DNA from: Cytobacillus firmus
Lineage (GTDB): Bacteria; Bacillota; Bacilli; Bacillales; Cytobacillaceae
DNA: 64,000 bases
NCBI RefSeq assembly: GCF_023657595.1
Contig: NZ_CP098323.1
Location: 4,736,001-4,800,000 of the forward strand
Direction: 5' to 3'
A program made the translations under genes and the position numbers. This document shows positions 9,641 to 55,872 of this stretch, piece by piece (the stretch's first letter is position 1; every line of letters starts with the position of its first letter). Under the pieces are notes generated by a model that did no database searches, had not been told where the DNA came from, and saw nothing but the letters and a program-made list of their open reading frames with translations.

Positions 9641-10065
9641 GCTTTATTCACCTTCCGTATATTTTCATCATTTTCATCGAGCCATTCAAGGTTTTTAAAC
9701 AGCTCATCACGGCTATATTCCGCCAGTTCAAAATTATTGGTCATGATAATCGCTTCGGTTGGGCATACCTCTGTACACAAGTCGCAAAGGATGCAAATTT
9801 CGAAGTTGATATCATAGGTATCAATGATTTTCCCCTTTTTGGCAGGGTCCGGATGTTTTTTCCCTGTCAGCTCGATACAATCGGTAGGACAAATATTTGC
9901 ACACTGATTGCAGACAATGCATTTTTCAGGGTAAAACTTTTGAATTCCCCTGAACCGGTCCGGAAGCGGAAGCGGCTCATTCGGGTAATCATACGTTACC
10001 TTTTTGCGTGTCAGGTTTTTAAGGGTATACGATAATCCTTTCGCTAAACCAAGCATGTTTTTCAC
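9637..10065 (-). CDS. nuoI: Complex I iron-sulfur subunit NuoI
   Basis: This 142-residue protein carries two [4Fe-4S] clusters (N6a and N6b) that pass electrons to NuoB. Two ferredoxin motifs are visible: CIVCNQCANICP with Cys49, 52, 55 and 59, and CILCDLCTEVCP with Cys91, 94, 97 and 101. The start follows AAGGGGTG. The gene is separated from nuoH by 406 bp filled with two family B repeats. Confidence 0.95.
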   Translation of the reverse strand: MKNMLGLAKGLSYTLKNLTRKKVTYDYPNEPLPLPDRFRGIQKFYPEKCIVCNQCANICPTDCIELTGKKHPDPAKKGKIIDTYDINFEICILCDLCTEVCPTEAIIMTNNFELAEYSRDELFKNLEWLDENDENIRKVNKA

Positions 10066-10080
10066 CCCTTGTTAAGAAAT

Positions 10081-10198
10081 GCGGAAGCGCCTTGCCCACC
10101 CCCGACAAGCACAAGACGAGCCTCACGGAAAGGCGTTCTTTGCCTTTCTGGAGGATTGGCTTGTGACCTCGAGGGGGTAGGCGCTGTAGCTAGACAAC
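10081..10198 (+). repeat. Family B hairpin repeat inside the nuo operon, copy B1
   Basis: The element begins GCGGAAGCGCCTTG and ends GGCGCTGTAGCTAGACAAC. It can fold into a long hairpin: ACCCCCGA pairs with TCGAGGGGGT, and CAAGCACAAG with CTTGTG near the other end. Related copies are at 10206-10446, 16329-16534, 20596-20780 and 32816-33060. It sits between nuoI and nuoH. Confidence 0.8.
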
Positions 10199-10205
10199 TT
10201 TAGAA

Positions 10206-10446
10206 ATGCGTAAGGCGCCCGCTTATAAGGAACGCAGTCTAAAACCGCCACGTCCTGTGGCAACGTCTGCATGACCCGCATCCTCCCAAAAGCTGTCGCT
10301 TTCGGTCGTGCGATGTTTATGCTGACGAAGCCTTCCTTGTCCTGCGGGCCTCAAGCATAAGACGAGCCGGCTAAAAGGTTGTTTTTTAACCTTTTGGACG
10401 GATTGGCTTAGACCCGAGAGCCGATGGCGCCTGGAGCTGGACAATT
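10206..10446 (+). repeat. Family B hairpin repeat inside the nuo operon, copy B2
   Basis: This copy ends with GGCGCCTGGAGCTGGACAAT like its neighbour but has a longer interior. The interior module (CCTCCCAAAAGCTGTCGC, GGTCGTGCGATG, CCTTCCTTGTCCTG) also occurs in reverse orientation at 16329-16534 and at 55075-55145. An inner hairpin AAAAGGTTG/CAACCTTTT-like sequence is at 10372-10400. Confidence 0.75.
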
Positions 10447-10471
10447 CTCGAAGTTATGAGGCTGTTCCTCA

Positions 10472-16256: not shown

Positions 16257-16328
16257 GGATCTCACCCCCTGGTTTTCTAAACCTTGTCTATTATTAAAAC
16301 CAAATATTCAATTTTGTACGTCGATAAC

Positions 16329-16534
16329 TGTCTAGCTCCACAAGGAAAGCTTCGTCAGCATTAACATCGCACGAGCAAAAGCGACAGCTTTTGGGAGGAT
16401 GCGGGTCATACAGACGCTGCCACAGGACAAGGAAAGCTACGTCAGCGATACATCGCACGACCGAAAGCGGCAGCTTTTGGGAGGACGTGGCGATCTTAGT
16501 ATGTGTTCTTACGTGGGCAAGGCTTCCGCTTTTC
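16329..16534 (-). repeat. Family B hairpin repeat, copy B3
   Basis: It begins TGTCTAGCTCCA and ends GGCTTCCGCTTTT, the reverse orientation of the nuo copies. The interior holds two related ~90-bp modules, each with GACAAGGAAAGCT(T/A)CG or AAGGAAAGCTTCG, an ACATCGCACGA core and AGCTTTTGGGAGGA. The second module is shared with the hybrid element at 54956-55229. It fills most of the gap between two small genes. Confidence 0.8.
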
Positions 16535-16934: not shown

Positions 16935-16980
16935 ATGTATCAGCATCAACCACTCACCCACCAACATATCAACCATCTAT

Positions 16981-17242
16981 AAAGTGAAACTTCAATCAGT
17001 GGGGGTTTTCCTTATCCCCCACTTATTGTTAGTCGCGTTCTAGTGTCGCTAAGATCTCCGCTAGCGCTTCGATCAATCGACACTACGAACCCGATTGGTT
17101 CAACTAAGCCTCTGCCTGCGCGTCGGCAAGTTTCACTGTATCTCACCAATCGGGCCTTTACGGGCAGTTTGACCCCCACTTATCCTCCTTTGATTCCTCT
17201 GAGTCTTGAAGTGGGGGTCTTACTGCCCGTTAGACTGCGATA
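16981..17242 (+). repeat. Family C multi-hairpin element, copy 1
   Basis: The ~262-bp element starts AAAGTGAAACTTCAATCAG and ends CCCGTTAGACTGCGATA. It contains four potential hairpins: AGTGGGGG/CCCCCACT near the left end, TAGTGTCG/CGACACTA (17041-17085), CCCGATTGGT/ACCAATCGGG (17090-17154), and GGGCAGTTTGACCCCCACTT with AAGTGGGGGTC...CTGCCC at the right end. The first-end decamer AGTGAAACTT (16983-16992) is complementary to 17128-17137 in the loop of the third hairpin. About 145 bp of the core is identical to copy 2 at 51815-52071. No coding sequence was found. Confidence 0.8.
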
Positions 17243-17253
17243 AAATTCACCTA

Positions 17254-20546: not shown

Positions 20547-20595
20547 TCACGTAATGGGAGAGTACAGGCAGCACCCGTTCTCCGCATTTCGTTTG

Positions 20596-20780
20596 TGTCT
20601 AGCTCCAGCGCCTAGCCCCTCGAGGTCATAAGCCAATCCCTTCCGGAAGGAAAGAACACCTTCCAAAAGGGCTCGTCTTATGCTTGTCGGACTTGCACAG
20701 GATGTGCTGACGTCAACGTTCGCCACAGGACGTGGCGGTATTTAGTTGACGATCATCTGAATAGGCGCTTCCGCTTTTCG
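20596..20780 (-). repeat. Family B hairpin repeat inside the atp operon, copy B4
   Basis: It begins TGTCTAGCTCCAGCGCC and ends GGCGCTTCCGCTTTTCG, so the two ends carry the inverted GGCGC/GCGCC pair. The interior includes CCCTCGAGGTCATAAGCC and GGCTCGTCTTATGCTTGTC (complementary over AGCCAA/CATAAGCC-type segments) and a smaller hairpin GCCACAGGACGTGGC. It lies 3 bp from the atpG stop. Transcripts of atpD and atpC must cross it. Confidence 0.8.
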
Positions 20781-32697: not shown

Positions 32698-32815
32698 GAG
32701 TATCTCTCCTTTTCATTATGCAGATTAGTCGAACCACACTTCGTCTAATTTTACAGAAAAACAATTCCATCGGCAACTATGATTCGTATTTGTAAAATAA
32801 AAGTCATTATATAAG

Positions 32816-33060
32816 AAAAGCGGAAGCGCCTTGGTCACCCCCGACAAGCACAAGACGAGCCTCCGGAAAGGCGTTCTTTGCCTTTTGGGGGATTGCCCGA
32901 AATGTGGAGGCGACTGCCCAGGGACGACAGGCATAAGACGGTTCCTTTAAGAAGGCGTTTTTCCTTCTGGAAGGAAACGGCTTATGACCCCGAGTCCCTA
33001 GGAGCCGCAACTAGACAAGCTTGTGACCTCGAGGGGGTAGGCGCTGGAGCTAGACAGTTC
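32816..33060 (+). repeat. Family B composite repeat between upp and glyA, copy B5
   Basis: The outer parts (AAAAGCGGAAGCGCCTTG at the left; CTCGAGGGGGTAGGCGCTGG at the right) match the short copy at 10081-10198. Between about 32890 and 33018 another related unit is inserted, ending in its own CAACTAGACAAGC. The composite suggests insertion of one unit into another, or tandem duplication followed by decay. Confidence 0.75.
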
Positions 33061-36196: not shown

Positions 36197-36620
36197 CCAA
36201 ATGGCATGATGGGTTCGGACTCAGGATCAGCGATTTCTGCTTTCTCTGTCCGAAGTTGACCTGACTTCAGACTCTAAATCCTCGATTTCTACTTTTTGTG
36301 TCCGAAGGTGACCTGACTTCGGACTCTGAATCCTCAATTTCTACTTTCTGTGTCCGAAGGTGACCTGACTTCGGACTCTGAATCCTCGATTTCTACTTTC
36401 TGTGTCCGAAGGTGACCTGACTTCGGACTCTGAATCCTCAATTTCTACTTTCTGTGTCCGAAGGTGACCTGACTTCGGACTCTGAATCCTCAATTTCTAC
36501 TTTCTGTGTCCGAAGGTGACCTGACTTCGGACTCTGAATCCTCAATTTCTACTTTCTGTGTCCGAAGGTGACCTGACTTCGGACTCTGAATCCATAATTT
36601 ATGGTTTTTCAGTCCGAACA
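36197..36620. repeat. Family D 52-bp hairpin array, array 1
   Basis: TCCGAA starts at 36249, 36301, 36353, 36405, 36457, 36509, 36561 and 36613, exactly 52 bp apart; a partial unit precedes. Each unit has GTCCGAAG and CTTCGGAC arms around a short loop (25 bp in all) followed by ~27 bp of GAATCCTC(A/G)ATTTCTACTTTCT spacer. As 52 is not a multiple of three, it is not protein-coding. It fills the gap between the sigma gene and ywlG. Confidence 0.95.
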
Positions 36621-42733: not shown

Positions 42734-42802
42734 GCCTGAAAGGAAGATGTTATATGCTTGTCTTAATTGTAATTTGATTTCCAATTTTTAAAATGATTCT
42801 AA

Positions 42803-43400
42803 AAAGAGATGGGTTTGGGGTTCGGACTCTTCTGGTGCTTTTTCTCGCTTATGTTTGTAAAGTTGGCTCGGGTTCAGACTCTGGGGTCACTTTTCCTGCT
42901 CCTTCTGTCTGAAGTTAGGCCGGGTTCGGACTCTACGAGCGCTTTTTCTCGCTTCTTTGTCTGAAGTTAGACCGGGTTCAGACTCTACGGTTGCTTTTTC
43001 CCCCTTCTGTGTCTGAAGTTGACCCAGATTCGGACTCTACGAGCGCTTTCTCCCCCTTTTGTGTCTGAAGTTGACCCAGGTTCGGACTCTACCAGCGCTT
43101 TCTCCCCCTTTTGTGTCTGAAGTTGACCCAGGTTCGGACTCTACCAGCGCTTTCTCCCCCTTTTGTGTCTGAAGTTGACCCAGGTTCGGACTCTACCAGC
43201 GCTTTCTCCCCCTTTTGTGTCTGAAGTTGACCCAGGTTCGGACTCTACCAGCGCTTTCTCCCCCTTTTGTGTCTGAAGTTGACCCAGGTTCGGACTCAAA
43301 TTCCAGGTTTCCCGCCTGCTCTGTCTGAAGTTGAGCCGGGTTCGGACTCGATTCCACTTTTCCCGCTCCCGCTGTCCGAAGCTGACTGTGGACCCGCCAC
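42803..43400. repeat. Family D 52-bp hairpin array, array 2
   Basis: GTCTGAAG (or GTCCGAAG) starts at 42907, 42959, 43011, 43063, 43115, 43167, 43219, 43271, 43323 and 43374, nine steps of 52, 52, 52, 52, 52, 52, 52, 52 and 51 bp, and two decayed units precede. The second arm is TTCGGACTC; in the unit at 42959 it is TTCAGAC, restoring full pairing with GTCTGAA. Spacers in the middle are nearly identical (TACCAGCGCTTTCTCCCCCT), and diverge toward both ends. It lies between spoIIR and the KGG gene. Confidence 0.95.
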
Positions 43401-48457: not shown

Positions 48458-48584
48458 TTCTTACACCTCCTTTTTATAGCATGTCCGCTAGAGGGAGGAT
48501 TGTGCGGTCCAAAATAAGGCAGAGCTGGGGTGTGAAGGCATTGATTTTTGATTTGGCTGAAGACATGGCGACCATTTGTCTTAG

Positions 48585-48890
48585 TTTTGTATCTGGAAGT
48601 TGATCCAGATTCGGACTCTGACTCCTTGATTTTTGCTCTTTGTATCTGAAGTTAACCCAGGTTCGGACTCTGACTCCCGGATTTTTGCTCTTTGTGTCTG
48701 AAGTTAACCCAGGTTCGGACTCTGACTCCCGGATTTTCGCTTTTTGTGTCTGAAGTTGATCCTGGTTCGGACTCAAATTCCGGGATTTTCGGTTTTTTGT
48801 GTCTGAAGTTAACTCAAGTTCAAACTCAGTCTCCCGGATTTTACTTTTTGTGTCTGAAGATGACCCAAGTTCGGACTCACTCACGGATTT
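48585..48890. repeat. Family D 52-bp hairpin array, array 3
   Basis: (A/G)TCTGAAG-type words start at 48644, 48696, 48748, 48801 and 48852, with a partly changed copy at 48591. Steps are 53, 52, 52, 53 and 51 bp. The second arm is TTCGGACTC and the spacer TGACTCCCGGATTTTTGCTC. The same orientation and period as arrays 1 and 2 are kept. It lies between the lipoprotein gene and tdk. Confidence 0.93.
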
Positions 48891-49005
48891 TTCGCGGATC
48901 TTCTGCTTTTCGGCTTCATGAACTCTTCATGGCAACCAATTCTACTCGGCAAAATAAAAAAACTGCCCGGAACATGCCAGGGCAGAGAGATCGTTAAGTA
49001 TGAAT

Positions 49006-51804: not shown

Positions 51805-51814
51805 CTGTTTATTT

Positions 51815-52071
51815 AAAGTGAAACTTCAATCAGTGGGAGTGCTTTTCCCCCACTGATTGTTAGTCGCGTTCTAGTGTCGCTAAGATCTCCGCTAGCGCTT
51901 CGATCAATCGACACTACGAACCCGATTGGTTCAACTAAGCCTCTGCCTGCGCGTCGGCAAGTTTCACTGTATCTCACCAATCGGGCCTTTACGGGCAGTT
52001 TGACCTCACTTATCCTCCTTTGATTCCTCTGAGTCTTGAAGGGGGGTCTTACTGCCCGTTAGACTGCGATA
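51815..52071 (+). repeat. Family C multi-hairpin element, copy 2
   Basis: The 257-bp copy starts AAAGTGAAACTTCAATCAG and ends GACTGCGATA. From GTTAGTCGCG to GGGCAGTTTGAC it is identical to copy 1. Differences are limited to the terminal hairpins. It lies 4 bp from the glpX stop codon. Confidence 0.85.
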
Positions 52072-54955: not shown

Positions 54956-55229
54956 TATCTCAGTCTAACGGGCAGTAAGCCCCCCCACTTCAAGACTCAA
55001 AGAAATCAATGGAGGATAAGGGGGGTCAAACTGCCCGTAAAGGCCCGAAAAGAAGAACAAAGACTAATAACGCCACATCCTCCCAAAAGCTGCCGCTTTC
55101 GGTCGTGCGATGTATCGCTGCCGTAGCTTTCCTTGTCCTGTGGCAACGTCTTTGTGACCCACTTCCTGTGGGCCTCAACTAACAATCAGCAGGGAGAAAA
55201 GCACTCCCAACTGATTGAAGTTTCACTTT
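54956..55229 (-). repeat. Family C hybrid element carrying a family B core, copy 3
   Basis: Both ends match family C in reverse orientation: TATCTCAGTCTAACGGGCAG at the left and GATTGAAGTTTCACTTT at the right, with the terminal hairpins kept. The centre is not family C; from about 55065 to 55170 it is the family B module (CCTCCCAAAAGCTGCCGC, GGTCGTGCGATG, CTTTCCTTGTCCTG) seen at 16329-16534. The right end abuts the tal stop codon. Confidence 0.85.
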
Positions 55230-55872
55230 ATCCTCTTGAGTTCCAGTCTGCGAGGAACGCTTCGATTCCCTTATCTGTCAGAGGGTGGTTGAATAATTGC
55301 TGGATGACTTTATAAGGAATTGTCGCGATATGAGCTCCTCTTAATGCTGCATCCGTCACATGCTGAGGATGTCTGATGGAAGCCGCAATGATTTCTGTAT
55401 CAATGTCATGAATCGCGAAGATCTCTGCAATTGTGGAGATTAGATCAAGACCGTTGTGGCCAATATCGTCCAAGCGTCCAAGGAATGGGGAAACGTATGT
55501 AGCACCTGCTCTTGCAGCAAGCAGCGCCTGGTTTGCACTGAAGATCAGCGTTACATTTGTTTTAATGCCTTCTTTTGAAAAGGCGCTTACGGCTTTCAAA
55601 CCATCCGGTGTCATTGGCACCTTGATTGTGATGTTCGGTGCAATCGCTGCAAGCTCTCTTCCTTCTTTAATCATGCCTTCAGCATCAAGAGCGATAACCT
55701 CAGCGCTAACTGAGCCTGGCACCAATTCCGTGATCTCACGAAGACGGTCAGGGAAGGATACATTCTTTTCCTTTGCCACCAATGATGGGTTGGTTGTTAC
55801 TCCGGCAACTACCCCAAGGGCATATGCTTCTTTAATTTCGTCCATGTTCGCTGTATCGATGAAAAACTTCAT
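55228..55872 (-). CDS. tal: Small transaldolase / fructose-6-phosphate aldolase family protein
   Basis: The 214-residue TalC-type enzyme (YwjH) starts at 55872 ([14 protein letters not shown]) after AAGGTGGG. The Schiff-base Lys is in [14 protein letters not shown]. It links glycolysis and the pentose phosphate pathway. Its TAA stop includes the first base of the adjoining repeat element. Confidence 0.94.

Follow-up and report, generated by a model that had tools for sequence, protein, structure and literature searches.

The repeats described here have their closest described counterparts in the non-autonomous IS200/IS605 elements, also termed PATEs, and in bcr1 of Bacillus cereus. According to PMC6006769, IS200/IS605 transposition follows a guide/target layout, which the arrangement of the repeats analysed here (family C) matches. 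According to the respective papers, bcr1 is restricted to B. cereus sensu lato, carries a TTTAT motif and occurs in tens of copies (PMC6542083), is 147–167 bp long (PMC2267715) and is grouped with MITEs having terminal inverted repeats (PMC3733652); for B. cereus bcr copies of all 18 families, 84/165 and 62/155 lie in mRNAs (PMC3446304).

The stretch analysed (the window) comprises 64,000 nucleotides of Cytobacillus firmus DNA, positions 4,736,001–4,800,000 of one 4.98-Mb contig. Like IS200/IS605 elements, family C has subterminal hairpins at both ends and a short one-sided target; it also has a conserved tetranucleotide 5′ of each hairpin foot, a candidate guide, and shows an apparent bias towards the lagging-strand template (26/32 copies, a figure confounded by gene direction). 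Unlike them, it has no cognate tnpA or autonomous parent that we could find, it strongly prefers sites behind terminator-like hairpins, and its units nest mutually. With bcr1 (group A repeats of the B. cereus group), compared here by description only, it shares TTTAT at the ends, a length of about 150–170 bp and multicopy occurrence; unlike bcr1, grouped with MITEs having terminal inverted repeats, family C is spread beyond B. cereus sensu lato, and a search of plasmid records with its consensus gave no match in the B. cereus group.

Results

Family C is a multicopy element with two covarying end hairpins

The first-pass annotation had pointed to two copies of a structured repeat, and both were found, at 16981–17242 and 51815–52071. 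The element is a genuine repeat with at least 40 loci in the C. firmus genome (40 of 107 candidates scored), of which 39 have readable ends; orientation was set by the conserved ends, and flank counts are given for n = 39 of 40, L029 with its damaged 3′ end being set aside. By size, the loci fall into 28 of 255–264 bp, nine of 385–388 bp, one of 197 bp and one of 144 bp, plus L029, and the mean identity of the copies is 97%.

For the two copies annotated first, the element sense is the minus strand of the window. With the ends redrawn, copy 1 (an outer unit plus a nested inverted unit) occupies 16979–17239 and is preceded on its 5′ side by the host target pentamer TTTAT (17240–17244); hairpin 1, at the 5′ end, spans 17160–17230 with its foot CTAA at 17230–17233, hairpin 2, at the 3′ end, spans 16993–17028 with its foot CTAA at 17029–17032, and the 3′ terminus AAGTTTCACTTTAT lies at 16979–16992, all on the minus strand. 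Copy 2, the composite element under study (51814–52068, minus strand), sits right behind the stop of an ORF, which we take by eye to be glpX (class II fructose-bisphosphatase), and ahead of a terminator-like hairpin. A third copy (54959–55231, plus strand) carries a Bacillaceae-1 hairpin in place of the core. The core had been described as identical between the first two copies; near identity was borne out and full identity was not, since 17011–17174 and 51842–52005 agree at 99% over 164 nt, and the end hairpins diverge more than this stretch, as had been noted. Both strands fold far more stably than their dinucleotide shuffles (z −7.9 for the minus and −6.6 for the plus strand).

The basic element is about 155 bp long (133–159 bp across 47 aligned loci). 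Its layout is TTTAT / CGCAGTCTAA – hairpin 1 – GGCCCGATTGGTTCAACTAAC (linker) – hairpin 2 – GAAGTTTCACTTTAT, with the element starting at CGCAG directly after the TTTAT target. A subterminal hairpin lies at each end, and terminal inverted repeats are absent, in agreement with the first-pass annotation. Both ends, the linker and a TAA-type foot before each hairpin are conserved; within the feet AA is invariant, and hairpin 1 also has feet other than YTAA (e.g. GCAA in L183). Two copies, L192 and L244, have no recognisable 5′ end. The alignment of basic elements (A1) holds 47 of 53 loci, with L012 (in which the inner unit was caught) and L170, L179, L180, L191 and L245 (short or misparsed) left out. 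Its loci come, among the matches listed, from a pattern search that fixes part of the linker and the 3′ end, so that the invariance of letters in the hairpin 2 foot, the linker and the 3′ end is partly selected. Hairpins 1 and 2 covary in this alignment, with both-sided changes at 8 of 23 pairs (62 cells; 0/500 shuffles).

The core is a nested inverted element, and the proposed pseudoknot lacks support

The end decamer AGTGAAACTT is present at 16983–16992 and 51817–51826, and AAGTTTCACT, complementary to it, at 17128–17137 and 51959–51968; the pair had been proposed to form a long-range pseudoknot in RNA. A covariance model built from basic elements only gave a second match on the other strand, and in both window copies this match coincides exactly with the core: at 17031–17140 (plus strand, 41 bits, model positions 1–154 with internal deletions) and at 51862–51971 (plus strand, 41 bits, E 3.2e-7). 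Hairpin 1 by itself gives a weaker antisense match of 29.5 bits, so palindromy supplies part of such scores; the core match stands apart from palindromy by its unpaired linker and 3′ end letters. This match to a whole inverted unit, inserted 3′ of TTAGT in the outer linker, identifies the long form, as judged from its letters, as an outer C element with an inverted inner C element. The complementarity of the decamers is explained by the outer and inner 3′ ends facing each other in opposite orientation.

We examined the pairs in 15 core-bearing sequences (alignment A2, 15 of 22; L029, L063, L314 and L316–L319, truncated or with inserts, were left out). For the pseudoknot, 95.3% of cells are paired and none of the 10 pairs shows a both-sided change; five of these pairs are invariant, which makes this an absence of support rather than a disproof. 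In the same sequences both-sided changes were seen in hairpin 2 (3/11 pairs), the inner hairpin 1 (2/11) and its tip (1/4), and none occurred among the 9 pairs of the fold's long stem or the 7 pairs of the inner 3′ hairpin, where 66.7% of cells are paired. The suggestion of a mobile structured RNA thus did not gain support, the core being an inverted second element and the pseudoknot pairs lacking covariation.

A structured RNA that owes its spread to its function, whether the core with its pseudoknot or a TnpB guide RNA, nevertheless has one further observation on its side. Among 28 own-genome copies the core carries 0.0086 substitutions per site (29/3386) vs. 0.0272 in hairpin 1 (67/2462) and 0.0214 in hairpin 2 (32/1496), i.e. 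it evolves about 3 times slower than the former and about 2.5 times slower than the latter; in 9 diverged sequences it is 84% identical vs. 68% and 79%, respectively. This slow change weighs somewhat in favour of a core function, as does, for the RNA reading, the both-sided change at two of 11 nested-hairpin pairs. The basic family, however, has no core, and the pseudoknot pairs tell against it as described. As to the guide RNA variant, TnpB scored above cut-off in only 5/36 genomes of the genus, and its nine fetched loci are without C ends. We therefore consider a spreading functional RNA highly improbable. The single TnpB of the C. firmus genome (L031, 355–1839), which we take to be IS1341-like, has its own, different flanking hairpins and is followed, after some 590 bp, by a basic C copy (2425–2579). 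With other end hairpins at this sole TnpB and TnpB rare in the genus, an omega RNA was rejected as the identity of family C.

Empty sites and a one-sided target

Comparison with relatives revealed sites without the element for copy 2 and for L024, which demonstrates mobility. The joined flanks of copy 2 have a nearly full-length match at ≥80% identity in 19/36 genus genomes, with a 20th at 72%; the empty site is contiguous in the 10 readable of 19 rows, the exact joint falling in an AT-rich stretch where it is not placeable to the base. The joined flanks of L024 match over the full length (1–320) in 16/36 genus genomes, and the best empty site, L111, is exactly the left plus the right flank of L024, with a 2-bp ambiguity remaining. 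The reading left out 9/19 rows for the first site and 5/14 for the second.

The pentamer to the left of the element is TTTAT in 34/39 own copies and in 93/125 copies of the other fetched loci (array-internal copies excluded). The constraint is on the left flank only, the 3′ flank being nearly without information. The TA that had been noted at both sides is present, but as part of the TTTAT-like pentamer. Where the left pentamer is not TTTAT (n = 33), the right end is TTTAT in 25 cases, the same as the left in one and something else in seven; because a change on the left is not mirrored on the right, a 5-bp duplication did not take place. The short left-only target characteristic of IS200/IS605 is thus found here, with a 2-bp AT ambiguity.

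That ambiguity is what a conventional MITE, mobilised by a DDE transposase that leaves a 2-bp AT/TA duplication, would build on: a 2-bp AT duplication is compatible with most copies, AT stands at both their ends, and the best empty site leaves the same two base pairs undecided. Such an element would be expected to look different in other respects, given that family C has no terminal inverted repeats, conserves the target on one side only and shows no joint variation of the flanking pentamers; moreover, L156, L173, L191 and L214 look like a left flank not ending in AT with TTTAT at the right end, although later mutation is possible there. A DDE-type MITE is in our view very unlikely.

The TTTAT at the 3′ end of the element regenerates the target. 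Ornithinibacillus gellani and Lysinibacillus parviboronicapiens carry head-to-tail arrays, in which most joints are TTTAT; L249 consists of seven recognisable units. Separately, at several convergent gene pairs (e.g. L013, L016, L018, L022, L025) the target TTTAT was seen to overlap the stop of the facing raw ORF, a codon that the element's own 3′ TTTAT probably restores.

Insertion behind terminator-like hairpins

In 22/39 copies the 5′ junction is preceded, at a distance of at most 13 nt, by the end of a terminator-like hairpin, called by a scripted stem rule in which a T-tract was not required. The same rule picked out 77 of 590 intergenic TTTAT sites, i.e. sites not within a raw ORF of ≥80 aa (Fisher p 1.4e-9 vs. 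copies), and 134 of 1500 sampled TTTAT sites (Fisher p 3.7e-13 vs. copies), and at the opposite side of the element such a hairpin was found in only 3/39 copies. Part of this preference may be selection for harmless places. Neither the target next to terminators nor how widely the family is distributed had been noted in the first-pass annotation.

Group IIC introns likewise insert just 3′ of intrinsic terminators, as stated in PMC4424553, and insertion of an RNA behind terminators in their manner, with a reverse transcriptase acting in trans, would suit the stable RNA fold predicted to be possible for the element. Unlike these introns, family C has no intron RNA match: there was no group II intron among the Rfam matches of the window, and the best Rfam family in the element had E 0.59. 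Further, RVT_1 was absent from the C. firmus genome, the only genome searched with it, and by the same stem rule the 5′ side lacks a terminator-like hairpin in 17/39 copies, copy 2 (51814–52068) among them. The RNA-based route, considered because of the terminators, was dropped as no reverse transcriptase was found in the C. firmus genome, and its probability appears to us minimal.

To orient the copies relative to replication, we placed the origin at base 1 of the contig, where dnaA lies as read by eye from the translation; the turn in GC skew falls between 2.25 and 2.5 Mb. With the eight copies at 2.2–2.6 Mb left out, the RNA-sense strand of 26/32 copies is co-directional with replication (equivalent to the lagging-strand template), 14/18 of those with a terminator-like hairpin and 12/14 of those without. 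Since genes mostly run in the direction of replication, this bias is confounded.

Family C is widespread, and no autonomous copy was found among the Y1/TnpB loci fetched

The covariance-model search suggested in the first-pass annotation was run, and the basic-element model matched 92/299 order-level genomes (E ≤ 1e-6; up to 10 candidates scored per genome, stricter filters), covering 52/117 genera of this sample; within the genus, family C is present in 31/36 genomes. No C copy turned up in phages or viral contigs with the queries used, and four 14–16 nt pieces of the conserved ends had no match in the literature searched. A truncated C copy was also seen in a record labelled as Klebsiella grimontii plasmid pNY3A (CP079755.1; L325, 3973–4063), where the surroundings look Gram-positive by eye and the assembly is possibly mixed.

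Searches of the C. firmus genome with Y1_Tnp and with a Bacillales RAYT profile found no match, the positive control for the latter (G025) being detected. Thirteen of 15 genomes were empty for the RAYT profile; of the other two, G025 is the positive control and G014 has a fragment. REP/REPIN sequences with RAYT transposases, described in PMC6006769 as extragenic high-copy palindromes whose 5′ foot bears a tetranucleotide, resemble family C in these respects; unlike these, C has a foot of the NTAA type and not GT[AG]G, two different hairpins per unit and no RAYT in the C. firmus genome.

Y1 was found in 23/36 genus genomes, among them 3/5 C-free ones, and was absent from 11/31 C-bearing ones; of 20 C-bearing genomes of other groups, 17 had Y1 and three, including the array-bearing O. 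gellani, did not. No autonomous C with tnpA/tnpB was present among 69 fetched Y1/TnpB loci (60 Y1, 9 TnpB; up to 1.5 kb on each side; up to 30 loci per search), which show only scattered near-matches or C copies next to or around an IS200. Thus, of the original reading as non-autonomous IS200/IS605 units, the anatomy and the mobility seen at empty sites stand, whereas a partner tnpA/tnpB copy with the same ends was not recovered. The tnpA genes of Natronobacillus azotifigens (L268, 1220–2070; L279, 1330–2110) were considered as parents and rejected: an IS200 tnpA sits within C copies, in either orientation, is read as nested in them and is therefore not the C parent. In Sporosarcina limicola (L284) a tnpA remnant adjoins a truncated C copy, and the listed stretches of L192 and L244 contain no transposase-like ORF by eye. 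The mean copy identity of 97% and the fact that the two insertion sites checked are both common to neighbour species imply that movement in the C. firmus genome may be somewhat old, so that loss of the enzyme is possible.

The same 11/31 genomes without a Y1 match fit a different process, in which a bcr1-type hairpin repeat is moved at TTTAT by something akin to site-specific recombination, with no Y1 involved. The comparable size (147–167 bp for bcr1), the TTTAT motif and the tens of copies would agree with this. On the other hand, no B. cereus-group plasmid was among the eight of 72,556 plasmid records that matched the C consensus at E ≤ 10, and the hairpin feet and one-sided target point to Y1 chemistry. 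We regard the bcr1-type process as doubtful, though with an appreciable chance of being right.

Other hairpin units as cargo

In the third window copy, a Bacillaceae-1 module (RF01690; 55048–55172, plus strand, 60.1 bits, gathering 35) sits in the linker, likewise in a copy in L307. PMC2864571 lists Bacillaceae-1 as a table row. All three gathering-level matches to this family (typed sRNA) in the window, at 20694–20761, 10223–10296 and 55048–55172, are inside repeat units, by eye two in a TCTAGCT...GCTTCCGC family and one in family C. Bacillaceae-1 therefore looks like mobile hairpin cargo.

The 387-bp forms contain an extra 124-bp unit (family A) between CCTTTAC and GGGCAG, which by eye resembles a separate repeat family at 32.9–33.0 kb of the window. 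We also observed a second hairpin repeat family, AAGCGGAAGCGCC...GGAGCTAGACA, at about 10063–10455, 16320–16530, 20590–20780 and 32810–33060 of the window; its members seem mutually nested and similar to the 124-bp unit that the 387-bp C forms contain. In addition, a 52-bp tandem repeat of the TCTGAAGTTGACCCAGGTTCGGACTC type forms three separate arrays in the window (36212–36608, 42767–43390 and 48578–48900).

Discussion

With its ends, target and nesting known, an unexplained structured repeat becomes, as family C, one defined mobile family, and raises the question of what moves it in genomes where no Y1 enzyme is found. On balance, we lean towards its being a non-autonomous mobile DNA element, mobilised as single-stranded DNA much as IS200/IS605 elements are. 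On this model, a trans-acting enzyme of the Y1 (HUH) type would bind both hairpins, and the TAA-type tetranucleotides at the hairpin feet would choose the cleavage sites, namely the TTTAT ahead of hairpin 1 and the terminal TTTAT after hairpin 2. The strand between these sites would be excised and pasted into the lagging-strand template 3′ of another TTTAT, with a preference for the T-tract behind an intrinsic terminator. If only the ends matter, composites loaded with an inverted C unit, a Bacillaceae-1 hairpin or the 124-bp family-A unit would move on as one block, and it is through such block movement that the 263- and 387-bp forms would have become numerous.

More tentatively, and with a good deal of doubt, we propose that in hosts without a recognisable Y1 transposase (here without a reverse transcriptase either) C moves by IS200/IS605-like single-strand insertion behind terminators through an unrecognised or host-borne enzyme, capturing hairpin units, Bacillaceae-1 included, as cargo.

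These findings have several consequences. A convincing-looking RNA pseudoknot can come merely from nested inverted copies, and an Rfam RNA family such as Bacillaceae-1 can travel as the cargo of mobile hairpins. A terminator-adjacent target would make C elements a natural probe of the single-stranded DNA behind transcription units.
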